From positions 1 through 43,108 of the forward strand of contig JAMXLF010000039.1 in the NCBI GenBank assembly GCA_024281055.1: a DNA stretch of 43,108 bases. Reading direction: 5' to 3'. Under the pieces are notes generated by a model, which had not been told where the DNA came from, searched no databases, and was given only the letters and a program-made list of their open reading frames with translations. Numbering within the stretch: position 1 is the first letter of the stretch; every line of letters begins with the position of its first letter. Positions 973 to 42,669 of this stretch are shown in pieces. The stretch comes from Geobacteraceae bacterium. Lineage in GTDB: Bacteria > Desulfobacterota > Desulfuromonadia > Geobacterales > Geobacteraceae. The position numbers were made by a program, and so were the translations under genes.

Positions 973-1167
973 GTTCAACGTTCAAGGTTCAATGTTCAAA
1001 GTTGAAAAGTCAGGCCAAGCACCTGTCACGATATTCTACAAGAGCAATTAATTTTCAATAGAGAAAAAAGGCGATGCGTCCAAGGACCACCGCCTTTTTC
1101 TTTGCCACTAGCTCCGATTTTGAACCTTGAACATAGAACCTTGAACCTTGAACGTTGAACGTTGAAC
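973..1167. repeat. Inverted heptamer arrays between tlpA-like gene and uvrC
   Basis: Five forward units of the GTTCAAN type lie at 973-1007, and seven inverted units of the NTTGAAC type lie at 1119-1167. A spacer holding a terminator separates them. The last inverted unit shares its final base with the uvrC stop codon (1167-1169 on minus). The same unit family recurs at about 7.4, 7.85, 8.35, 28.57 and 42.6 kb. Confidence 0.85.
1064..1104. terminator. Bidirectional intrinsic terminator
   Basis: An A-tract plus GGCG at 1065-1073 pairs with CGCC plus a T-tract at 1091-1099. An inner GTCC/GGAC stem lies at 1078-1087. It lies between convergent genes and can serve the trxA/tlpA transcript on plus and uvrC on minus. 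Confidence 0.75.
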
Positions 1168-5057: not shown

Positions 5058-7400
5058 ATGAACCAGCCACCAACCCCACTTCCCGCTATGCACCATCCAC
5101 AGCATGAAGAGGTCCACCTCCGGGATTACCTCAACGTCATCCGTCGGCGTCGCAAGCTATTTCTCATTGCTTTCGGGGTGGTCCTTTGCGTCGTCGTCCT
5201 CTACACCTTCACCATAAAGCCGGTCTATGAGGCGTCAGCCACCCTCCATGTGAAGGACGAGAAGTCGAAGACCGGCGTGCTCGGCGAGCTTGCCCTGAGC
5301 GAGGTAAGCCCGGTCGATTCCGAGATCGAGATCATCAAGGCGCGCACCAACGCCGAGCAGGTGGTGAAATCCCTCCACCTGGACTGGCGTCTCCGGGACC
5401 GGGTGCCGGGGATGAGCTTCCGGCTGCTGGATTTTACCAGCAGCGCCGTAAAGCCGGTCTACAAGCTGGAGTTGACCAGCGCTGATGGCTACAAGGTCTG
5501 GGACGAGGACGGCCACCTGGTAGGCATCGGCAGGAGCGGCATCCCCATGCAGGGGAAGGGGATTACCCTCCAGCTCGACGACCTCAAAGGTAAGCCGGGG
5601 GATACCTGCGGCCTTGTGCTCCACTCGTTCAACGGAACGGTGTCGGGCTTGCAGAAGCAGACCAAAGCGGTTGAGGTCGGCAAGAAGACCAACATCATCA
5701 GGATTTCCTACCCGGACACCGACCCGGAACTGGCACGGGACGTGGTCAATACCCTGGTTCAGGCCTACCTCGAAAAAACCGTGGCCCTCAAGGCTGAGGA
5801 GGCGAGCAAGACCGTGGATTTCGTCGGGGACCAGCTCAACGGCGTGCGCCAGACTGTCGACGCCGCGGAGAAAGACCTCCAGGCCTACAAGAGCAAGTCC
5901 GGGGTGATGCAACTCGACACCGAGGCCCAGACCCTCATCGAGAACGTCTCCGATGTGGAAAAACAGCGGGCCGAGGTCGTCATCCAGAAGAAGCAGGTGG
6001 AGTTCGCCCTCTCCTCCCTCAAGGACGCGGCTCGCCGCGGCGTCGTCTATTCTCCGTCGGTCCTCGGCGATAACCCCCTCGTGGCGGGGATGGCTTCCAA
6101 GCTGGCCGACCTGGTTGTGCAGAAACGAGCGCTCATCTCGGAATATACCGAGGCCGCTCCCCAGGCGAAGGCCCTCCAGGGGCAGATCGACGAGCTGCAG
6201 CGCAAGCTCCAGGCAACCTACGAAACAGCCCTCAGGAACCTGGACAAGCAGGAAGGCACGATCGTCCAGGGGTTGGGGGTCCTCGAAGGGAGGCTGCGCC
6301 AGCTGCCGGGCGCCGAGCGTGACCTGGCGCGGCTCACGCGGCTCGCCAAGGTGAACGCCGACATCTATACCTTCCTCCTCCAGAAGCACGAGGAGGCCCG
6401 CATCGCAAAGGCCTCCACCATCAGCAACATCGACATCGTCGACCCGGCCATCACCCCTGACCGGCCGATCAAACCGCAGAAGGTGAAGAACCTCATTCTC
6501 GGCCTCCTGGTCGGCTGTATGTTCGGGGTCGGGCTCGCCTTCTTCCAGGAGTACCTGGATGATACCATCAAAGATCCGGAACAGGCCAAGCGGATTCTTG
6601 GACTGCCGGTCCTGAGCGTCATCCCCTACCTGAAACCAGCGGAGGGAAGCGGCACCATCGACGCCGTCGCCCTCCTGGAACCGAAGTCGGCCGGGGCCGA
6701 GGCGTTCCGGAGTCTGCGGACGGCGCTCCACTTCTCTTCCCTCGACCGGGATGCGAAGGTCCTGCTGGTGACCAGCGCCTTCCCCGCCGAGGGAAAGTCC
6801 ACCGTCTCCGCCAATCTCGGCATCCTCCTGACCCAGAACAACGCCCGGGTCCTCCTGGTTGACTGTGACCTGCGCCGTCCCTCCCTGCACACCAAGTTCA
6901 GCCATTCCAAAGTGCCGGGCCTCACTGAGATCATTTCCGGCGCCGCATCCCTGGCCGGCGCCATCCATTCCACCGGCGTCGAACGGCTCGACTTCGTCAG
7001 CGCGGGGACGATTCCGCCGAATCCGGCGGAGCTTCTCGGTTCCGACGCAATGCGGCGCTTCCTCGAAGAGGCCCGCGGGCAGTATGACCGGATCATCCTT
7101 GACGCTGCGCCGGTCCTTGCCGTTACCGACACGGCAGTTCTCTCTTCTCTGGCGGACCAAGGGCTGGTCGTCATGGAGATGGAACGGGTCCCGGCCAAGG
7201 CCGCGCAACGAATGCGTGATATTCTTCACGCCACCGGCATGCGGGTTTCCGGCTTTGTCTTCAATGACAAGAAAAACCACGGCCAGGCTTACGGCTACGA
7301 CTACTACGGCTACTACGGGTATGGCTACAATGCGTATTACGGAGAAGAGCAAGCTTCGGCCAAGGGGCAGAGTTGGTGGAGAAAGCTCCTGAAAAGATAG
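5058..7400 (+). CDS. Wzc-type polysaccharide co-polymerase and tyrosine autokinase
   Basis: A 780-residue inner-membrane protein that couples chain-length control and export through the Wza pore to tyrosine phosphorylation. The Wzz domain begins with TM1 at about residues 33-53. Long periplasmic coiled-coil segments lie between about 220 and 400. TM2 at about 477-497 follows the proline-rich RPIKPQKVKN motif. The BY-kinase domain has Walker A (AEGKS) near residue 580, Walker A' (LLVDCDLRRP) near 600 and Walker B (IILDAAPV) near 680. The C-terminus carries the tyrosine cluster that is autophosphorylated, about ten Tyr between residues 743 and 765. The full two-domain length is typical of proteobacterial Wzc. 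Its likely phosphatase is encoded by the gene at 7866. It is 47 bases downstream of the wza-like gene. Confidence 0.93.
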   Translation: MNQPPTPLPAMHHPQHEEVHLRDYLNVIRRRRKLFLIAFGVVLCVVVLYTFTIKPVYEASATLHVKDEKSKTGVLGELALSEVSPVDSEIEIIKARTNAEQVVKSLHLDWRLRDRVPGMSFRLLDFTSSAVKPVYKLELTSADGYKVWDEDGHLVGIGRSGIPMQGKGITLQLDDLKGKPGDTCGLVLHSFNGTVSGLQKQTKAVEVGKKTNIIRISYPDTDPELARDVVNTLVQAYLEKTVALKAEEASKTVDFVGDQLNGVRQTVDAAEKDLQAYKSKSGVMQLDTEAQTLIENVSDVEKQRAEVVIQKKQVEFALSSLKDAARRGVVYSPSVLGDNPLVAGMASKLADLVVQKRALISEYTEAAPQAKALQGQIDELQRKLQATYETALRNLDKQEGTIVQGLGVLEGRLRQLPGAERDLARLTRLAKVNADIYTFLLQKHEEARIAKASTISNIDIVDPAITPDRPIKPQKVKNLILGLLVGCMFGVGLAFFQEYLDDTIKDPEQAKRILGLPVLSVIPYLKPAEGSGTIDAVALLEPKSAGAEAFRSLRTALHFSSLDRDAKVLLVTSAFPAEGKSTVSANLGILLTQNNARVLLVDCDLRRPSLHTKFSHSKVPGLTEIISGAASLAGAIHSTGVERLDFVSAGTIPPNPAELLGSDAMRRFLEEARGQYDRIILDAAPVLAVTDTAVLSSLADQGLVVMEMERVPAKAAQRMRDILHATGMRVSGFVFNDKKNHGQAYGYDYYGYYGYGYNAYYGEEQASAKGQSWWRKLLKR

Positions 7401-7405
7401 CCTTT

Positions 7406-7440
7406 GTTCAAGGTTCAAAGTTCAATGTTCAAGGTTGCAA
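7406..7440. repeat. Forward GTTCAAN heptamer array left of an S23 gene
   Basis: Four perfect GTTCAAN units lie at 7406-7433, followed by a degenerate fifth unit, GTTGCAA, to 7440. The array lies six bases after the wzc-like stop codon and 22 bases before the S23-family gene. The matching inverted array is at 7844-7871, on the other side of that gene. Confidence 0.85.
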
Positions 7441-7462
7441 CTAAAAACCGAAAGTCTGAGTC

Positions 7463-7828
7463 GTGAGAATAGAAAACTTTGAAGATATAGAAGCATGGAA
7501 AGAAGCAAGGTTGTTGGTCAGTCAGATTTACGCCTGTTTCAGGGATTGCAGGGATTTCGGATTCCGGGACCAGATTCAGCGAGCAGCGATTTCAATCATG
7601 GCTAATATAGCGGAAGGCTTCGACCGAGGAAGCAACAAGGAATTTGTCCAGTTTTTGATCATTGCCCGCGGTTCGATTGCTGAAGTGAAGAGCCTCAGCT
7701 ATGCTGCTTTGGATATCGGTTACATCGCCAACGATCAGAGCGCCGTCATTCAAAACAAATGTGTGAAACTCAGCAATCTGATCAACGGCTTCATCAGGTA
7801 CTTGAGGAGTTCAGAAAGAAAATGCTGA
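7463..7828 (+). CDS. Four-helix-bundle protein of the S23 (23S rRNA intervening-sequence protein) family
   Basis: A 121-residue helical protein starting at GTG 7463. The family hallmarks are visible: an N-terminal (D/E)xxAWKEAR helix, FRDQIQRAAISIMANIAEGF at about residues 35-54, then a polar helix beginning SNKEFVQFL and a small-residue helix ARGSIAEVKSL. Members were first described inside insertions of 23S rRNA genes, and most are free-standing with unknown function. The Avd protein of diversity-generating retroelements has a related fold. No rRNA or reverse transcriptase is nearby. The gene interrupts the usual wzc-phosphatase order and is enclosed by oppositely oriented heptamer arrays, which suggests it arrived as a cassette. 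No strong ribosome-binding site is visible. Confidence 0.85.
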   Translation: MRIENFEDIEAWKEARLLVSQIYACFRDCRDFGFRDQIQRAAISIMANIAEGFDRGSNKEFVQFLIIARGSIAEVKSLSYAALDIGYIANDQSAVIQNKCVKLSNLINGFIRYLRSSERKC

Positions 7829-7843
7829 ACCCGGGATCGAAAC

Positions 7844-7871
7844 CTTGAACATTGAACCTTGAACATTGAAC
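7844..7871. repeat. Inverted heptamer array right of the S23 gene
   Basis: Four units in exact 7-base phase alternate CTTGAAC and ATTGAAC, complementary to the array at 7406-7440. The last unit contains the TTG at 7866-7868 that is the only usable start codon of the following phosphatase gene. Confidence 0.85.
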
Positions 7872-8630
7872 AGGTTTCCTAAGACAGACTGGCACTGCCA
7901 CATCCTTCCCGGCCTGGATGATGGCGCGGGGAGCCTGGACGAGGCGGTGGCGATGGCCGCGGCCCTTCGGGATGCGGGTTTTTCCACGGTCCACTGCACG
8001 CCCCATCTCATCAGAGGGTGTTACGAAGCGGACAATGCCACTGTCAGAAAGGGAGTCGAAGTGCTCCAGGGAGAACTCGACCGGCGGGGGATCGCCCTGC
8101 GCCTCCTCCCCGGCCGGGAGTATTACCTGGACGAATACCTCGCCGAGTACCTGACGGACCCGCTCCCTCTCGGCGACACCCGTTTTCTCCTCATCGAAGT
8201 CCCTGCGCACACTCCTGTTGACTTCGTTAAGGAAACTTGCTTTCGGGTCTGCAGTAGCGGATACACCCCGATGATAGCCCATCCTGAGCGTTGCCGGCTC
8301 TTTGATCTCCCTGCACCCGCCTCGGGCAGGCTCCGGGAGATGTTCAAGGTTCAAGGTTCAAGGTTCAACGTTTTTAAGTCAACATCGAACGTTGAACATC
8401 GAACGTTGAACGCTCCATCAAATAGTCTGTTGGACTATTTAGTGGAGATAGGCTGTGCCTTCCAGGGAAATCTGGGGAGCTTCACCGGCCGGTACGGCGA
8501 GCGGGTCAGGCAGGCTGCCGAGCGACTGCGGGAGGCGGAGGTCTACAGCCAATTGGGGAGCGACGCCCATGGGGTTGAGCATATCCGCGGCATGAGCTTT
8601 CCTATGATCCGTTTCCCTGATCGTTCCTGA
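7866..8630 (+). CDS. PHP-family protein-tyrosine phosphatase (YwqE/CpsB/CapC type)
   Basis: A 254-residue metal-dependent phosphatase expected to dephosphorylate the Wzc-type kinase encoded 466 bases upstream. The PHP metal-binding motif is DWHCHILPGLDDG at residues 8-20. CTPH, the GREYY segment, AHPERC and the C-terminal GSDAH motif (near residue 239) are all present. The start must lie before the HCH motif, and an in-frame stop at 7860-7862 leaves only TTG 7866, inside a heptamer repeat and without a visible Shine-Dalgarno sequence. A second heptamer inverted repeat (8342-8411) is read through in frame. It adds about 25-30 residues between AHPERC and the LVEIGCAFQGN segment, at a position where family members have a short link. 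Whether the enzyme is active or efficiently translated is therefore uncertain. Confidence 0.85.
   Translation: MNRFPKTDWHCHILPGLDDGAGSLDEAVAMAAALRDAGFSTVHCTPHLIRGCYEADNATVRKGVEVLQGELDRRGIALRLLPGREYYLDEYLAEYLTDPLPLGDTRFLLIEVPAHTPVDFVKETCFRVCSSGYTPMIAHPERCRLFDLPAPASGRLREMFKVQGSRFNVFKSTSNVEHRTLNAPSNSLLDYLVEIGCAFQGNLGSFTGRYGERVRQAAERLREAEVYSQLGSDAHGVEHIRGMSFPMIRFPDRS
8342..8411. repeat. Heptamer inverted repeat inside the phosphatase gene
   Basis: Four GTTCAAN units at 8342-8369 are followed by a 14-base spacer and four inverted units at 8384-8411, alternating ATCGAAC and GTTGAAC. The RNA could fold into a long hairpin. The reading frame stays open through it. Confidence 0.85.
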
Positions 8631-9018: not shown

Positions 9019-9051
9019 ATTCGGTCATTGAATACTTTCTGGGAGGGATGT

Positions 9052-12000
9052 ATGCACAATGTTAAGTGTCTCGTGAGTTCGATGCGGCGGCATTTCATGG
9101 TGTTAGGGTTTGCGCTGCTGTTCATGCTGGCTGCCTTTTCTCATGCGATGGCGGTTAGCCAACCGTTCATGGTGAAAGACATTAACAATGTAGGGTCAGG
9201 CACCTACTCAATTACGAGCTCGCTTGTTACCATCGGGTCAGTGACTTATTTCGCGGCAGTCGATGATGATCACGGCTCAGAGCTATGGAAAACTGACGGG
9301 ACAGAAGCAGGCACGGTCATGGTAAAGGATATCTGCCCTGGCAGTTCCGGCTCTTTTCCCGACAATCTGACAAACGTGAACGGCACGCTCTTTTTCACGG
9401 CGGATGACGGGGTCAATGGGAGAGAGCTCTGGAAGAGCGACGGCACGGCAGATGGCACCGTCATGGTGAAGGATATATCCCCCGGCTCAATGTCATCTAA
9501 TCCTGCCTATTTCACCAATGGAAACGGCACTCTCTTTTTCGCGGCGGACGACGGGGTTCATGGCAGGGGACTATGGAAAAGCGACGGAACAGCGGAAGGC
9601 ACGGTGCTGGTCAAAGATATAACTCCCGGGGGAGGAACCTCGGACCCGCTCCTCACAAATGTCAATGGCACCGTCTTTTTCAGAGCAGCCAATCCAGTTT
9701 ATGGCCTGGATCTCTGGAAAAGCGACGGGACGGCCGCCGGCACAACGCTCGTTTGGTCGGTAAACGGGTATGGTCTGCAAGAGCTCACCTCTGTGAACGG
9801 CAAACTATTCTTCGGTGTCTATCAACAACTGTGGGTCAGCGACGGGACTACGGCCGGTACAGTCAAGGTTGCGGACGTCTGTTACTCTTCTTACTGCGCC
9901 AACCCCACTTCCCTTACCAATGTGAATGGTACAGTATTCTTCGCCACCAACTGGCCGACTGTGTATCTCTGGAAGAGCGACGGGACGGCGTCCGGGACCG
10001 TCCGCATCAAGGAGGTAGCACCTAACAACATTTCTGCCCCAGCTTATCTTACCAATGTCAACGGCACGCTTTTCTTTAATTTTATGAATGAACTGTGGAA
10101 GAGCGACGGAACCTCGGCCGGTACGGTACCCGTGAAAGACCAGTACTTCAATCCTTCCGATCTCATCAATGTCAACGGCACCCTGTTTTTCACGGCCGAC
10201 GACGGGGCCGTCGGTAGAGAGCTCTGGAAAAGCGATGGGACTGATGCCGGGACCGTATTGGTGAAGGACATTTATCCCGGCCCTGGTCCTTCCTATCCAT
10301 CCTCTTTGACCAATGCGAATGGCACGCTCATTTTCTCCGCTTCCGACCCGATCAATGGAGGTGAACTCTGGAAGAGCGACGGGACGCCGGAAGGCACGGT
10401 AATGGTGAAAAATATCTTTTCCGGTACGGGAGGCTCGCTGCCTACCAGCTTGACTGACGTGAACGGCACACTCTTTTTTGCGGCAGATGACGGGCTTAAT
10501 GGGATTGGGCTCTGGAAGAGCGATGGAACGGCTGCCGGAACTGCGCTCGTCAAGGATTTTTACACTAGCCCAGGGTCAATTAGACCTGACAATTTTCTCA
10601 ATGTGAACGGCACGCTATTTTTCGCGGCTGATGATGGTGTGAATGGTCGCGAACTCTGGAAGAGCGACGGAACTGCAGCCGGTACAGTGCTTGTCAAGGA
10701 TATTTTTCAAGGCGCTCAAGGCGCTTATCCTTCTTATCTCACTAATGTGGCGGGCACGCTCTACTTCATGGCCACCGACCAGGATCACGGCGCTGAGCTC
10801 TGGAAGAGTGACGGGACTGCGGACGGGACGGTGCTGGTAAAGGACATCTATCCAGGGATGAATGGCTCAAATCCCAATCCTCTTACTAACGTGAACGGGA
10901 CGCTTTATTTCACTGCCGATGATGGGAACAATGGGAAAGAACTATGGAAGAGCGACGGGACTGCGGACGGGACGGTGCTGGTAAAGGACATATATCCGGG
11001 CGCGGGAGCTTCCTATCCTAGCTATTTGACAAACGTTAACGGGACACTGTATTTCACGGCTAACGACGGTACGAAAGGGGCGGAACTCTGGAAGAGCGAC
11101 GGAACTGCGGACGGGACGGTGTTGGTAAAGGACATCAACCCGGGCGCTGGGTCCTCCATCCCCAGCTATTTGACCGACGTGAACGGCACCCTCTTTTTCA
11201 ATGCTGATGACGGGGTAAATGGTAACGAGCTGTGGAAGAGCGACGGCACTGCAGCCGGCACCGTTATGGTCAAGGATATCTTTCCCGGGGGCTCCTCATA
11301 TCCGTGGAACCTCATGAATGTGAACGGCACCCTGTTCTTCGTTGCCGACGATGGAATCCACGGGTCCGAATTATGGAAAAGCGACGGCACGGCGGCCGGC
11401 ACCGTCATGGTGAAGGATATCAAACCCGGCAGCGGTTCATCGAATCCCAGTGGGCTCACGATGGTGGGGAATAAGCTTTATTTTTTCGCGGACGACGGCG
11501 TCCATGGGCCCGAATTGTGGACCAGCGACGGTACGGATGCGGGCACGGTCATGGTGATGGACATCTTGCCCGGCAGCGGTGGCTCGATGGACTTTTACTC
11601 TCAGACCATGCTGAATATCAAGGGAAATCTCTTCTTTGTTGCCAACGACAGGCTCCATGGTTACGAGCTCTGGGCGCTTGATTTGACCCCTCCTGTTACC
11701 GCGATCAGCCTCCCGACTTCGCAAGAAATCATCGCCGGATCGACGTACACGATTGCCGGATCGGCAACGGATGCATTGACCGGCGTGGCCCTGGTCGAAG
11801 TTTCCACCGACGAGGGGGCCACCTGGAATTCCGCCGTAGATACCTCGGGCAATGGCAGCTGGTCGACTTGGAGCTACACATGGGCACTTCCCACAGATGG
11901 CTACTATATCATTCGTGTGCGTGCCACTGACAAGTCGGGAAATATCCAAGACCCGGTGACTGGCCGGGGAGTGACGGTGGACAACTACACAACATCTGTG

Positions 12001-15000
12001 GAAGGACTCACTGTCAAAGCAGATGGATTAGGACTCGGCACCGTCACCGGGCCGAACATCAGCTGCATATCCGGTGCGCCAGATGATTGCGGTTCTTCAT
12101 TCAGCAGGGGCACTCCTGTAACCCTCACGGCGACAGCATCTTCGGGCTCCGTTTTTGCCGGTTGGAAGGGGCAATGCTCCGAGGTCTCTGGAAATCAATG
12201 CACTGTGGTCATGAATGTTCCCAAGAGCGTCACGGCCACCTTCAACATGAATTGCGGGGTCGGCCCCTGTCCGGAGGTTGTGGCCAGCGGTAACATCGGG
12301 GGCGCCCCCTCCATCAATTCCCTGGGAGAAATCGTGTGGAACCAGCCCGACCAAAGCCTCCCCCTCCTCCAGGTAGTCTCGTCACAACGCGGGCTGCTGT
12401 TTAACGATCAGGTCAGCCGTTCTGGACCCGCCATCAATAGCATGAGCGATATGGTCTGGTCGGAAGGGTCCGGCCCGGGTACCGTCATGTTGCGGGGGAC
12501 CATCGGCGGGCATCTGGTGACGGTGGCGACAGCGGCGTGGATCGGCAATGCTGACATCAACGACCGGGGGGAAGTGGTCTGGGTTCAGCATGACGGCAGC
12601 AACCCCGACCCCACCTCCACCCAGATTTACTCGAACCTGCACGGGCAGCTCACCAGCGGCAGTTTTAAAGATGACATGCCCTCCATCAATAACCAGGGGG
12701 ACGTGGTTTTCATTCGGAGAGACATTCAGGGGCATCGGCCGCAGGTTTACAAGCTTGCGGCGGGGACCACGGCGCCGGTCGCCGTGACAAACGACGGACT
12801 GGACCACGACCGCGCGGCCATTACGGACAGCGGCGAAATCGTGTGGACTGAGCATGACACGGTGAATATGACCCCTGGACGGATCGTTTCGTCCACCAGG
12901 GGAGTGCTCTTCTCGCCGCCAAGGAACATCTATAATGTGGATATGAACAACTGCGGTGAAGTTGCCTTCCTTGATGATAATAACACCCTGTACCGGCTGG
13001 GGAGTTCGGAAGCATGTGTCACCTATCCTGCGCCGAACGACACGCGGGAGCAGGCATCGGCGGTCTCCTTCGGGGGGATTTTCACCGGCGTGGTGGACGT
13101 CGCGGCAAACCCGGTCGACTGGTACAAATTCAACGCGGCGGCCGGCGACACGATCCACATCACGGTGAACTACGACAACCGGGCGCCGAATATGCTGGCA
13201 ATTGGCCTGTACGATGGCCAGGGGACCCTGATCAGTGGGCCGACGACGCCCAGTCCGCTCGGCATCCAGGTACCGGCGAAGTCCAGCGGCATCTACTACC
13301 TGAAGATGGAGTCTCAGGGGGGGCGGTTCGGCTACACGGTGTCCCTCAACAAGCACAGCAGCAACTGCGGAGCGGCGGTCTGTCCCGAGGTGGTGGCCAG
13401 CGGCATCCTTGGCTGGGGCACCGCCATCAACTCCCTGGGTGAGGTGGTCTGGAGCCAGTACGACCAGGCGAGTGGCTGGAAACAGATATTCTCCTCACAG
13501 CGGGGGCAGCTTACCGCCGACCCTTCTAACCATAACAGCCCTGCCCTCAACAATATGGATGACCTGGTCTGGGTGGAGGCCAGCGACTCTTATCCCTACA
13601 CCTACACCCTGCGGGGTATCATTGCCGGCCAGCCGGTCGTAGTGGCGACCAGTCAGAACTGGATCAACAAGGCTGACATCAACGACCGGGGAGAGGTGGT
13701 GTGGAATCAACCGGATTCGAACAACTTCAGCCAAATCTTCTCCAACGTACGTGGGCAGTTGACGAGCGGGAGTGTGTATCACGACATGCCCTCCATCAAT
13801 AATCAGGGGGACATTGTCTATACGCAAAGTGATCCGGCACAGCCGGGGCCTGCCCAGGTCTACAAGCTGGCGGCCGGGGCTGCGACGCCGGTGGCGGTGA
13901 CCAACGACAGTATTGATCATCAGTACCCCGCGATAAATGACGCCGGCGAGATTGTCTGGGTGGCGATGAATAGTCCGACGGGGGGGGAGCAGCTCATCTC
14001 GAGCGTGAGGGGAGGGCTTGTATCGACGGCGGCGTGGTTCATGGTTACTGACTTGAACAACTGCGGGGATGTCGTCTATCTCGTGGATAATAACGGGCAG
14101 ACCACGCTCTACCGTCTGGGAGAGAGCTCCCCTTGTATGGCGGTGCCGGCCCGCAGCTATCTCCTCTGGGTCACGAAGAGCGGCAACGGCAGCATCGTCA
14201 GCAACCCCGCCGGGATCAACATCGCGGCGTCAGGCCAGTCCGGCGGCGCCGGGTTCGCCGTCAACAGTCAGGTGACTCTGACGGCCACCGCTGCAGCCGG
14301 GTCGGTCTTCACCGCTTGGGGCGGGGCGTGTGCGGGGACGAGCGGGACGACGTGCACGGTGACGATGGATCAGGCGAAGGGGGTAACGGCGGAGTTCGCC
14401 CTGCAGGCGGCGGCGCCGTCATACTTCACGGTCCCGGCCAACGTCAACAGCCTGGGTAACGTAACCGTTTCCACCGGGACCTCTTCGACTTCGGGTGCCC
14501 AGTATGTCTTCCAGTACAGCTCTGACGGCGGTGCCACCTGGGCCACCTACAACAGCGGCAGCGTCCGCAATCCGACCTTCACCCTGGCTTCGGGGACGTA
14601 CCTGTTCCAGGTGTACGTTGTTGCCGACAATTACCTCCCGAGCTCCGTCAGGGCGGCCAGCAATCCCTGCGTGGTCAGCAACGTCGCCATAGCGCCGGCG
14701 CTTCTCACTGTACCCATGACTACCACCGGTTCAGGGACCGTCGGCATTTCCGCGGCGGCTTCACCGACACCGGGTGCGCAGTATGTCTTCCAGTACAGCG
14801 CCGATGGCGTCAGCTGGACCACATACAACAGCGGCAGCGTCCGCAATCCGGCCCTCACCCTCCCTGCTCCGGGCACTTACCAGTTCCAGGTCTACGTAAC
14901 GGCCGCCGGTTACGCCCCGAGTGCCATCACCGCCGGCAGCAACACCTGCACCTTCTCCGGCGTTGCGGTGGCACCGGCGCTGCTCACGGTACCCACGACT

Positions 15001-15819
15001 ACCACCGGTTCAGGGGCCGTCGGCATTTCCGCGGCGGCCTCACCGACACCGGGTGCGCAGTACGTCTTCCAGTACAGTACGGATGGCACCAACTGGACCA
15101 CGTACAACAGCGGCAGCGTCCGCAATCCAGCCCTCACCCTCCCTGCTCCGGGCACGTACCGATTCCAGGTCTACGTAACGGCCGCCGGTTACGCTCCGAG
15201 TGCCATCGCCGCCGGCAGCAACACCTGCACCTTCTCCAACGTCGCGGTAGCTCCGGCACTGCTTACTGTACCCACGATAGCTGCTCCAGCAGGGACGGTC
15301 GGCATTTCCGCGGGAGCGTCCCTGACACCTGGGGCGCAGTATGTCTTCCAGTACAGCGCGGATGGCGGAGCAACCTGGACCACATACAACAGCGGCAGTG
15401 TGCGTAACCCGGCCCTCACTCTCCCCGGTCCAGGCACGTACCGGTTCCAGGTCTACGTGACCGCTCCAGGGTTTGTTTCCAGCCCCGTTGTCGCCGGCAG
15501 TACCACGTGCACCTTCTCCAACGTCGCCATGGCCCCGGCCAACCTGTACATCCCGGCCAGTACCACCACCGGGAGCATCTATGTCAGTGCCGGCGCCTCC
15601 CTCACCCCGGGGGTCTACTACCGCATCCAGGACAGCACCGACGGCGGTGCCAGCTGGACCACCATCTACCAGGGTGCCCAGCGCAACCCGACCCTGAACC
15701 TGGGGGTGGCGTCCGGGAAAACCTACCGGTTCCAGGTCCAGACCTACGATCCGACCCTGCCGACGCCACTCTTCCAGCCGAGCAGCTGGACGGCCGGCAG
15801 TAATACCATCACTTGGTAG
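9052..15819 (+). CDS. Giant secreted repeat protein (ELWKSDGT repeats, InlB-like, PPC and tandem C-terminal domains)
   Basis: A protein of 2255 residues from ATG 9052, placed five bases after GGGAGGG; an upstream TTG at 9028 lacks such a site. Residues about 15-35 form a signal peptide ending SHAMA. Residues about 65-875 contain 17 copies of a 48-residue repeat with consensus ELWKSDGTAAGTVLVKDI followed by LTNVNGTLFF; beta-propeller folding is likely. Then come an Ig-like segment (about 879-975), a divergent InlB-type segment with GWKGQCSEVSG (about 986-1066), and INSLGEIVW/INDRGEVVW repeats (about 1070-1320). A PPC-type domain (about 1328-1433), a second INSLGEVVW set (about 1440-1697) and a second InlB-like segment (about 1702-1783) follow. 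The C-terminal end is about five tandem repeats of about 93 residues with YVFQYSADG and YNSGSVRNPAL. No catalytic motif or known sorting signal is seen at the C-terminus. It is probably a surface or matrix protein tied to the EPS. Confidence 0.85.
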   Translation: MHNVKCLVSSMRRHFMVLGFALLFMLAAFSHAMAVSQPFMVKDINNVGSGTYSITSSLVTIGSVTYFAAVDDDHGSELWKTDGTEAGTVMVKDICPGSSGSFPDNLTNVNGTLFFTADDGVNGRELWKSDGTADGTVMVKDISPGSMSSNPAYFTNGNGTLFFAADDGVHGRGLWKSDGTAEGTVLVKDITPGGGTSDPLLTNVNGTVFFRAANPVYGLDLWKSDGTAAGTTLVWSVNGYGLQELTSVNGKLFFGVYQQLWVSDGTTAGTVKVADVCYSSYCANPTSLTNVNGTVFFATNWPTVYLWKSDGTASGTVRIKEVAPNNISAPAYLTNVNGTLFFNFMNELWKSDGTSAGTVPVKDQYFNPSDLINVNGTLFFTADDGAVGRELWKSDGTDAGTVLVKDIYPGPGPSYPSSLTNANGTLIFSASDPINGGELWKSDGTPEGTVMVKNIFSGTGGSLPTSLTDVNGTLFFAADDGLNGIGLWKSDGTAAGTALVKDFYTSPGSIRPDNFLNVNGTLFFAADDGVNGRELWKSDGTAAGTVLVKDIFQGAQGAYPSYLTNVAGTLYFMATDQDHGAELWKSDGTADGTVLVKDIYPGMNGSNPNPLTNVNGTLYFTADDGNNGKELWKSDGTADGTVLVKDIYPGAGASYPSYLTNVNGTLYFTANDGTKGAELWKSDGTADGTVLVKDINPGAGSSIPSYLTDVNGTLFFNADDGVNGNELWKSDGTAAGTVMVKDIFPGGSSYPWNLMNVNGTLFFVADDGIHGSELWKSDGTAAGTVMVKDIKPGSGSSNPSGLTMVGNKLYFFADDGVHGPELWTSDGTDAGTVMVMDILPGSGGSMDFYSQTMLNIKGNLFFVANDRLHGYELWALDLTPPVTAISLPTSQEIIAGSTYTIAGSATDALTGVALVEVSTDEGATWNSAVDTSGNGSWSTWSYTWALPTDGYYIIRVRATDKSGNIQDPVTGRGVTVDNYTTSVEGLTVKADGLGLGTVTGPNISCISGAPDDCGSSFSRGTPVTLTATASSGSVFAGWKGQCSEVSGNQCTVVMNVPKSVTATFNMNCGVGPCPEVVASGNIGGAPSINSLGEIVWNQPDQSLPLLQVVSSQRGLLFNDQVSRSGPAINSMSDMVWSEGSGPGTVMLRGTIGGHLVTVATAAWIGNADINDRGEVVWVQHDGSNPDPTSTQIYSNLHGQLTSGSFKDDMPSINNQGDVVFIRRDIQGHRPQVYKLAAGTTAPVAVTNDGLDHDRAAITDSGEIVWTEHDTVNMTPGRIVSSTRGVLFSPPRNIYNVDMNNCGEVAFLDDNNTLYRLGSSEACVTYPAPNDTREQASAVSFGGIFTGVVDVAANPVDWYKFNAAAGDTIHITVNYDNRAPNMLAIGLYDGQGTLISGPTTPSPLGIQVPAKSSGIYYLKMESQGGRFGYTVSLNKHSSNCGAAVCPEVVASGILGWGTAINSLGEVVWSQYDQASGWKQIFSSQRGQLTADPSNHNSPALNNMDDLVWVEASDSYPYTYTLRGIIAGQPVVVATSQNWINKADINDRGEVVWNQPDSNNFSQIFSNVRGQLTSGSVYHDMPSINNQGDIVYTQSDPAQPGPAQVYKLAAGAATPVAVTNDSIDHQYPAINDAGEIVWVAMNSPTGGEQLISSVRGGLVSTAAWFMVTDLNNCGDVVYLVDNNGQTTLYRLGESSPCMAVPARSYLLWVTKSGNGSIVSNPAGINIAASGQSGGAGFAVNSQVTLTATAAAGSVFTAWGGACAGTSGTTCTVTMDQAKGVTAEFALQAAAPSYFTVPANVNSLGNVTVSTGTSSTSGAQYVFQYSSDGGATWATYNSGSVRNPTFTLASGTYLFQVYVVADNYLPSSVRAASNPCVVSNVAIAPALLTVPMTTTGSGTVGISAAASPTPGAQYVFQYSADGVSWTTYNSGSVRNPALTLPAPGTYQFQVYVTAAGYAPSAITAGSNTCTFSGVAVAPALLTVPTTTTGSGAVGISAAASPTPGAQYVFQYSTDGTNWTTYNSGSVRNPALTLPAPGTYRFQVYVTAAGYAPSAIAAGSNTCTFSNVAVAPALLTVPTIAAPAGTVGISAGASLTPGAQYVFQYSADGGATWTTYNSGSVRNPALTLPGPGTYRFQVYVTAPGFVSSPVVAGSTTCTFSNVAMAPANLYIPASTTTGSIYVSAGASLTPGVYYRIQDSTDGGASWTTIYQGAQRNPTLNLGVASGKTYRFQVQTYDPTLPTPLFQPSSWTAGSNTITW
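9279..11690 (+). repeat. Tandem 144-base coding repeats
   Basis: About 17 in-phase copies encode the ELWKSDGT module. Spacing measured between adjacent copies (10651 and 10795) is exactly 144 bases, and a few copies are shorter. Copies near 10790-11130 are the most similar at DNA level, which suggests recent expansion or gene conversion. Confidence 0.85.
14430..15790 (+). repeat. Tandem 279-base coding repeats
   Basis: About five copies encode a 93-residue module at the C-terminus of the giant protein. The central copies are near identical: the same ten-base string occurs at 14861 and 15140, 279 bases apart. The outer copies are more diverged. Confidence 0.85.
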
Positions 15820-27667: not shown

Positions 27668-27799
27668 AAGGCCGTAAGGCGGAAGGCGTGAAAAAGGCCG
27701 TAAGGCGGAAGGCGTAAAGGCCGTAAGGCGGGAAGGCGTAAAAGGCCGTAAGGCGTGTTACCCCTCACGCTTTACGCCTGACGCCTCACGCTTTACGAG
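27657..27799. repeat. GTAAGGC-type repeat cluster with inverted arm
   Basis: Forward units GTAAGGC and GGAAGGC separated by GTAAAAGGCC-like links run from about 27657 to 27757. Six inverted units in strict 7-base phase follow at 27758-27799, for example TCACGCT and TTACGCC. The left edge encodes the end of the wcaF-like gene. The right edge supplies the ribosome-binding site (GAGG at 27797-27800) of the second S23 gene. Confidence 0.8.
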
Positions 27800-27806
27800 G
27801 TTGAGT

Positions 27807-28166
27807 ATGGAGAAGCCCCACAAGAAGCTTGATGCCTGGAACCTTGCCATGGCACTCGTCAAGGAAGTGTACAGAGCAACCGCCGATTTCCCATCCGCTG
27901 AAAGGTTCGGATTGACTGATCAGGCGAGAAGGGCGGCAGTCAGCATCCCAAGCAATATCGCAGAAGGGGCGGCAAGAAATACGAAGAAGGAGTTCATACA
28001 CTTTCTTCACATTTCCCAAGGCTCTCTCAGTGAACTGGATACGCAACTGGAACTGTCTAAAGAACTTGGCTATCTCGACGAGACTGTCTGGAGGACGCTG
28101 GACGAAACGATGACAAGGATTGATAAGATGCTGACAGGCCTCATACGTTCGCAGAAATCAAAGTAG
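27807..28166 (+). CDS. Four-helix-bundle protein of the S23 family (second copy)
   Basis: A 119-residue helical protein from ATG 27807, with GAGG six bases upstream; an in-frame TTG at 27801 is less likely. Family features are KKLDAWNLAMALVKEVYRA, FGLTDQARRAAVSIPSNIAE at about residues 32-52, EFIHFLHISQGSLSELDTQL and a C-terminal amphipathic helix. It is clearly homologous to, but diverged from, the 7463 gene. Function is unknown. As with the first copy, it breaks into an EPS gene string and is framed by heptamer arrays, here of the GTAAGGC/TTACGCT type. It may encode a small oligomeric nucleic-acid-binding protein. Confidence 0.87.
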   Translation: MEKPHKKLDAWNLAMALVKEVYRATADFPSAERFGLTDQARRAAVSIPSNIAEGAARNTKKEFIHFLHISQGSLSELDTQLELSKELGYLDETVWRTLDETMTRIDKMLTGLIRSQKSK

Positions 28167-28171
28167 TTTCT

Positions 28172-28199
28172 TTACCCCTTACGCTTTACGTTTTACGGA
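28172..28199. repeat. TTACGCT-type heptamer array right of the second S23 gene
   Basis: Four units in strict 7-base phase, from TTACCCC and TTACGCT to TTACGGA, lie between the S23 stop (28166) and the glycosyltransferase GTG (28207). The order starts with TTACCCC, like the inverted arm at 27758-27799. Confidence 0.8.
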
Positions 28200-28206
28200 T
28201 TCTAAC

Positions 28207-29022
28207 GTGACCATCTCAATAATCACCGCCACCTGCAACAGCGCATCCACCATCGCGGATTGCCTGGCAAGCGTCAATTCCCAGGAGGTCCCGGTTGAGC
28301 ACCTCATCGTCGACGGCGCCTCGGCGGACGATACGCTGGCGATTATCCGCCGGCATTCCCCTGCCGCCCGCATCCTGTCCGAGCCGGACAAGGGGATCTA
28401 CGACGCCATGAACAAGGGGATCGCCCTGGCGACGGGCGAGGCGGTCGGCATTCTCAATTCGGACGATTTTTACGCCGACAAGGATGTCCTGGCCAGGGTC
28501 GCTGCAGTCTTCGCCGACCCGGCCGTCGATGCCTGTTACGGCGATCTGGTCTACGTCAAAGACCGTTCAATGTTCAATGTTCGATGTTCAACGTTTACCG
28601 ATGACCGGTCCCCGGTCCCCGGTTCCCGGTCCCGGTTCCAAATCATTCGCTACTGGAAATCGGGAGAATTCAGCCCGGAGAAGTTCTACTGGGGCTGGAT
28701 GCCGCCCCATCCGACGTTCTTCGTGCGCCGGCGGGTCTATGAGCAGTACGGCCTTTTCAACCTGGCCCTGGGGTCGGCGGCCGACTACGAACTGATGCTC
28801 CGTTTTCTCCTCAAGCATCGGATCCGCACCGTCTATATTCCACAGGTACTGGTCACGATGCGAGCTGGCGGGGTAAGTAACGCCTCGTTTGGGAATCGCC
28901 TGAGAGCGAACCGCATGGACCGTGAGGCATGGCGGGTGAACGGACTGAAGCCGCACCCCTGGACCCTCTTCATGAAACCGGTGCGGAAGATCCCCCAGTG
29001 GCTCACAAGGCCTGCTGTTTAG
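28207..29022 (+). CDS. Family 2 glycosyltransferase with an in-frame heptamer insertion
   Basis: A 271-residue GT-A glycosyltransferase of the WcaA-like group. The start GTG 28207 gives the expected MTISIITATCNSASTIADCL; no clear ribosome-binding site lies upstream, where a heptamer array sits. LIVDGASADDTLAII, SEPDKGIYDAMNKGI and GILNSDDFYAD, the metal-binding aspartates, are near residues 36-95. WGWMPPHPTFFVRRRVYE and GSAADYELMLRFL complete the acceptor region. Between DLVYVKD and IIRYWKSGEFSPEKF the frame reads through a heptamer array (28565-28639) that adds about 24 residues rich in Arg, Ser and Pro. Relatives normally have a short loop here, so the added loop may be tolerated at the surface. 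Confidence 0.87.
   Translation: MTISIITATCNSASTIADCLASVNSQEVPVEHLIVDGASADDTLAIIRRHSPAARILSEPDKGIYDAMNKGIALATGEAVGILNSDDFYADKDVLARVAAVFADPAVDACYGDLVYVKDRSMFNVRCSTFTDDRSPVPGSRSRFQIIRYWKSGEFSPEKFYWGWMPPHPTFFVRRRVYEQYGLFNLALGSAADYELMLRFLLKHRIRTVYIPQVLVTMRAGGVSNASFGNRLRANRMDREAWRVNGLKPHPWTLFMKPVRKIPQWLTRPAV
28565..28639. repeat. Heptamer arrays of two families fused inside a glycosyltransferase gene
   Basis: Units GTTCAAT, GTTCAAT, GTTCGAT and GTTCAAC occupy 28565-28592. Without loss of 7-base phase, GTTTACC and GATGACC lead into GGTCCCC-type units from 28607. The last units (28628-28639) are six bases long. Phase is continuous over nine units (63 bases, 21 codons), so the frame is preserved. Confidence 0.8.
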
Positions 29023-42597: not shown

Positions 42598-42669
42598 GTT
42601 CAAGGTTCAATGTTCAACGTTCAAGGTTTGAAGCGGATAACATTGAACGTTGAACATTGAACATTGAAC
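42598..42669. repeat. Heptamer inverted repeat between uvrB and the MFS gene
   Basis: Four GTTCAAN units and a degenerate fifth at 42598-42632, a nine-base spacer, and four NTTGAAC units at 42642-42669. The left edge is 12 bases from the MFS start codon. The right edge is one base from the uvrB stop codon. Confidence 0.87.

Follow-up and report, generated by a model that had tools for sequence, protein, structure and literature searches.

What is a gene of the S23 family doing between two genes of a polysaccharide operon, enclosed by oppositely oriented arrays of a heptanucleotide repeat? The question is posed by a contig of a Geobacteraceae bacterium (JAMXLF010000039.1, assembly GCA_024281055.1), all 43,108 nucleotides of which were analysed and are called the window here. 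An earlier note on this DNA had described the arrangement as a small mobile cassette, and this layout was borne out (Table 1). The two arms are reverse complements at 30 of 32 positions, both mismatches fall in the free seventh base of the heptamer unit, and the S23 ORF lies between them. The upstream gene (5058-7400) carries Wzz, GNVR and AAA_31 domains and is wzc-like, while the downstream gene (7866-8630) carries a CpsB_CapC domain and is cpsB-like; the latter starts inside the right arm and keeps its reading frame through a further, S23-less hairpin. A triple-heptamer pattern, GTTCAANGTTCAANGTTCAA, has 254 matches in this 4.44 Mb genome when at most one mismatch is allowed, and the reversed-pattern control has none. 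The genome contains three S23 genes, one of which is the window's second, with arms that score below the cut of 15 used in the following comparisons.

Table 1. Cassette components, further GTTCAAN arrays and the window's second S23 gene.
Feature	Position	Strand
Left arm, (GTTCAAN)4GTT, five GTT cores, reads toward the S23 gene	7405..7436	+
S23 / four-helix-bundle gene, GTG start, 121 aa	7463..7828	+
Right arm, array in inverted copy, overlapping the 5' end of the cpsB-like ORF	7841..7872	-
GTTCAAN hairpin without S23, 70 bp, within the cpsB-like ORF	8342..8411	
Another inward GTTCAAN array pair, spacing 120 bp	973..1167	
Another GTTCAAN hairpin without S23	42598..42669	
Lone GTTCAAN array in a glycosyltransferase ORF, no inverted partner found	28565..28591	+
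Second S23 gene; weak arms at 27699-27719 and 28170-28190, score 13.5	27801..28166	+

The product of the enclosed gene belongs to PF05635 (110.1 bits, curated cut-off 33.8) and to TIGR02436 (105.7, cut-off 24, E 1.4e-30); the second S23 gene has an NF033474 match that lies below the cut-off of that model. PF05635 is the sole domain of the enclosed ORF, in which neither a transposase nor a Y1 domain was found, and as no catalytic domain is recognised in S23, other enzymes would have to carry out any movement. A defence function was dropped after PADLOC gave no match for S23 or for one GxxExxY protein (see below). The AlphaFold2 model shows four helices (pLDDT 97.5), and the predicted fold is a four-helix bundle like those of 2gsc (Z 19.9) and 2rld (Z 16.9), each deposited with five chains. 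It also resembles DGR Avd (8ub7; Z 14.9, rmsd 1.7 over 106 residues), with a score little above that of the first other family, the unrelated pectin methylesterase inhibitor (Z 13.6), and the protein has no Avd model match at 0.001. Thus, the window's S23 is predicted to share its fold with the pentameric S23 structures and with DGR Avd. A likeness of PF05635 to Avd is already in print, in a passage of PMC10053308. In excerpts of PMC4990558, the Xanthomonas protein of 2gsc is said to form a homopentamer of four-helix bundles, and the family is said to have solved structures and to occur in 23S rRNA intervening sequences but to have no known function. Purifying selection acts on S23, as seen from 639, 427 and 2275 differences at codon positions 1, 2 and 3 (49 pairs) and from a median dN/dS of 0.08 (14 equal-length pairs with a usable estimate).

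The generality of the layout was assessed with 185 S23 genes, after de-duplication, from the window's family, from named genomes of many phyla and from viral contigs. This set includes orthologues, and its named-genome loci were gathered by a peptide pattern, among the matches listed, with conservation of those residues partly built in. Flanks were compared for the 180 genes with 300 bp on both sides, and a frame was called at an inverted flank-match score of at least 15, the score cuts having been chosen while viewing the data. Inverted flanks enclosed 149 of the 180 genes (64/74 in the family, 61/77 in named genomes and 24/29 in viral contigs) and 31 fell below the cut. The corresponding counts are 24 of 896 for cross-locus pairs, 29 of 180 for direct orientation and 14 of 365 for other ORFs. 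Among the latter, 11 of 365 have period-7 arrays on both sides. In 80 named S23 loci, among the matches listed, a period-7 array was present on 59 of 160 sides and on both sides of 20 loci, compared with 2.8% of sides and 0.11% for both sides at 936 random positions in the same loci. All five plasmid loci read, from 19 records found, pass the cut; two of them (L348 and L349) represent a single S23 region, adjoining a phage integrase family gene, that is present on two Calothrix brevissima NIES-22 plasmids. The excess of arrays around S23 genes in other genomes on which the earlier note had staked its proposal is thus present, and the cassette layout is real and general among S23 genes.

The best arm period was 7 in 121 of the 149 frames, 8 in 17, 9 in 5, 6 in 3 and other values in 3; with shuffled arms, period 7 came out best in 26 of 149. 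Reverse transcriptases and Y1 transposases were rejected as owners of the period-7 arrays: of 30 reverse-transcriptase loci, 25 had enough flank and none of these showed an inverted frame, and none of 29 Y1_Tnp loci has period-7 arrays, other inverted flanks being present at 7 of the 29. The GxxExxY genes (PF13366, a PD-(D/E)XK family) of the same genomes proved unsuitable as a plain negative control, having no period-7 arrays but inverted repeats of other periods. Inverted frames surround 26 of 29 such genes with S23-type borders and 22 of 29 with ORF borders, the best period is 8 to 10 in 22 of the 26, and period-7 arrays occupy 1 of 60 sides, a count that includes L202, left out of later counts. 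Loci L178 to L207, except L202, have inverted repeats of period about 8-10 whose sequence differs by locus. No confirmed relative of GxxExxY was found in the viral contigs. GxxExxY genes have the appearance of a second family built on the same plan, and framing by inverted repeats is thus not unique to S23.

The link drawn earlier was to GTTCAAN as such. What recurs is instead period 7 and inversion, with a repeat sequence private to the protein lineage. Mean arm similarity is 0.037 for S23 pairs of the same genome with less than 50% identity (n=37) and 0.32 for non-orthologous pairs at 60-70% identity (n=127), arm and protein similarity are correlated (Mantel r 0.276, p 0.001), and 13 family loci with GTTCAA arms belong to a single S23 subclade. 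Thus, the arms go with the S23 protein lineage, not with the genome. The inward strand is G-rich, with G exceeding C in 125 arms and the reverse in 17. Lengths of period-7 arms have two modes, near 26 and near 31 bases, which correspond to four or five cores; counted directly, 76 of 206 such arms have four cores, 63 have five and 19 have three. Of 94 loci, only 45 have the same automatically assigned core triplet in both arms. Sampling of stretches from the window's own genome (G000) gave 75 GTTCAAN arrays, of which 52 contain five GTT cores. Together with the five chains of 2gsc and 2rld, five-core arrays suggest one core per S23 subunit; the suggestion is weakened by the four-core arms, and because arms span four or five cores an exact pentamer stoichiometry is only suggested.

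Our preferred reading, to which we give a slightly better than even chance, is that 7405-7872 is a copy of a widespread small element in which an S23/Avd-fold ring binds its own repeat arms, and that the hairpins are its derivatives. Such an element would consist of one S23/Avd-fold gene between inverted arrays, mostly of four or five short tandem repeats and mostly of period 7; the arms would be its ends, and their core would go with the protein lineage. S23, a pentamer in solved relatives, most likely binds the inward-reading strand of its own arms, at about one core per subunit, and may have a part in moving or keeping the elements, while hairpins without S23, such as that in the cpsB-like ORF, would be short derivatives of the same design. 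Arm binding would be the simplest account of arms that track the protein, although joint inheritance alone may make the two resemble each other and could give the same pattern. A bolder version, which we put forward tentatively and hold to be rather unlikely in full, would make S23 the recognition ring of a pan-bacterial selfish element, with cores belonging to each lineage, ends that are binding arrays and not cut sites, dispersed hairpins as non-autonomous derivatives, and the 23S rRNA intervening sequences as members inserted into rRNA genes. Each lineage's S23 would read its own core, about one per subunit, in the manner of TRAP, which recognises triplet repeats in RNA.

Most GTTCAAN arrays in the window's genome are hairpins without S23. 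In 27 stretches of this genome and the window, 34 close array pairs face inward and a single one outward, the latter lying between two neighbouring pairs. The 34 inward pairs without S23 favour a rival reading, one that we consider improbable, in which S23 is a passenger: the inverted arrays would be hairpin repeats in their own right, propagated by some other route, with S23 genes persisting inside them and having no action on them. The same reading draws support from array families that are abundant in genomes where S23 was not found: G019 has 184 GGGRCT array matches and no S23 match, and G013 has 84 GTTCTA matches with two partial S23 matches only. GTTCAAN itself, by a statistic that ignores relatedness, has 9-115 matches in 14 genomes with GTTCAA-armed S23 and 0-8 in 33 without. 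These counts point both ways on the two roles that the earlier note had offered for S23, agent or passenger of array spread: those of GTTCAAN track GTTCAA-armed S23, but the GGGRCT arrays of G019 occur with no S23 match. Heptamer abundance as proof of S23-driven spread was rejected, since it is clean for GTTCAAN and fails for GTTCTAN and GGGRCTN (counts compared with arms by eye). One of the 14 genomes, G021 (L268), has a frameshifted S23 with GTTCAA arms and 76 GTTCAAN matches.

Hairpins of another heptamer, without S23, also occupy sites that hold S23 elsewhere (L226 and L228 versus L250; L213 and L223 versus L276; L239 versus L275), as passengers might. Against the passenger reading stand the frames themselves, found at 149 S23 genes and at few other ORFs, the enclosure of S23 by 83 of 129 inward pairs that are 250-3000 bp apart (in an S23-centred sample), and the fact that arms follow the protein. 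The free seventh bases of 31 short hairpins pair less often than expected (15/113 versus 33 expected), but pairing is also low in a control shifted by two units (24/122 versus 36 expected), so the register of this effect is not firmly established. Seventh bases are under-paired in short hairpins of the window's genome (e.g. L261-L287) and over-paired in S23 cassettes; selection against perfect palindromes is perhaps the cause of the under-pairing.

Junctions between wzc and cpsB were read in 18 loci, with 13 weaker wzc matches left out. S23 is present at five (the window's own, three other full-length genes and one truncated), GxxExxY genes are present at three, and four are empty (L150, L159, L160 and L165); the remaining six loci have no adjacent cpsB, or a longer gap without S23 or GxxExxY. 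Orthologous junctions without the cassette, for which the earlier note had called, thus exist. The same note had held that S23 at this place in distant species would speak against a mobile cassette, and this applies in part: the four further junctions with S23 belong to other genera and show either different arms or no detected arms, and orthology across genera is seen for many S23 loci, among the matches listed. The occupied junctions of other genera and the cross-genus orthology indicate that the site is reused and that inheritance is often vertical. Elsewhere, flank comparison gave clean empty sites in genomes of related genera (e.g. L011, L013 and L020 versus L189; L014 versus L238), at which no clear target-site duplication was seen by eye, in flanks only 64-90% identical. 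No sign of recent transposition was seen for the S23-carrying form: the S23 genes in 45 same-genome pairs are never near-identical (highest 0.63), and many loci are orthologous.

A second alternative, less probable again, places the element at the level of RNA: the arms would pair in the transcript and RNase III would cut out the S23 segment, as in the intervening sequences of 23S rRNA. The Coxiella 23S rRNA intervening sequence offers a precedent: according to part of PMC4990558, it is cleaved by RNase III, ends in inverted repeats and contains an S23 ORF preceded by tandem heptamers. Orientation is also as such an element would favour: of 142 S23 genes, 90 share the direction of both neighbours, 22 oppose both and 30 are mixed (p 6e-11); however, this bias is not specific to S23, for GxxExxY genes lie with their neighbours in 22 of 27 loci, against them in one and mixed in four. 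Selection for RNA pairing would be expected to leave a G-U bias in the mismatches between arms, and none was observed (160 versus 174), on which ground RNA pairing was rejected as a constraint on the arms. A 23S rRNA setting was likewise rejected, five short 23S probes having no match in the loci examined and Rfam none on the window. The cassette and the intervening sequence are alike in that inverted repeats enclose one S23 ORF; they differ in that the cassette is part of a polysaccharide operon instead of an rRNA gene, and in that its arms are themselves arrays of a lineage-specific repeat. That S23 is a host regulator with dispersed arrays as its operators is the least probable alternative, for although S23 is under purifying selection, holds positions orthologous across genera (among the matches listed) and has one core repeated across the whole genome, 30 hairpins of the window's genome are not mainly upstream of genes (14 between codirectional, 8 between convergent and 4 between divergent genes, and 4 inside ORFs), and junctions swap both cargo and heptamer.

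The preferred reading, in which S23 would form a ring on the arms of its own element, also has to be set beside other known systems. REP and REPIN sequences are dispersed short inverted elements, on which the associated RAYT gene (TnpA_REP) is thought to act. Our elements are similar in combining dispersed short inverted elements with a candidate acting gene, but S23 has no Y1 (HUH) transposase domain and the Y1_Tnp loci have no period-7 arrays. The likeness to DGR Avd is one of predicted fold; the sole RVT_1 match of the window's genome is on contig C71, whereas the window is on C39. An insertion sequence or MITE would be expected to have a transposase and a target-site duplication; the window's ORF has no transposase domain, and the empty sites, compared by eye in flanks only 64-90% identical, show no clear duplication.

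Tandem heptamers have been described as heptanucleotide repeats of Geobacter, Xanthomonas and Beggiatoaceae, and passages of these papers report inverted convergent heptamer pairs in Xanthomonas and in-gene repeat families without frameshift in Geobacter (PMC4692102, PMC2700814, PMC2996986, PMC4679880). To the extent of these passages, the arrays studied here are alike in their tandem heptamers, inverted pairs and in-frame insertion in genes. The terms "S23" and "four helix" are absent from the main texts, as available, of PMC4692102 and PMC4679880, as are "four helix" and "23S rRNA" from the available text of PMC2700814 and "23S rRNA" from that of PMC2996986. No report tying S23 to such arrays was found in searches confined to one open-access library of papers. 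S23 would supply a partner for heptamer repeats that have been reported without one in several bacterial groups. In addition, with array frames that are lineage-specific, the sequence next to an S23 gene spells out a predicted ligand, which makes S23 function directly testable.

Three minor features of the region were noted. At 28565-28639 of the window, in the glycosyltransferase ORF, the GTTCAAN array is followed by CCGGTCC heptamers. An ORF of 2263 aa (9028-15819) contains 144-bp and 279-bp tandem repeats. By eye, array-like peptides lie in the same linker of CpsB-like proteins from several genera, encoded by differing repeats (the hairpin in the window's cpsB-like ORF; L149, L152, L153, L155 and L157).
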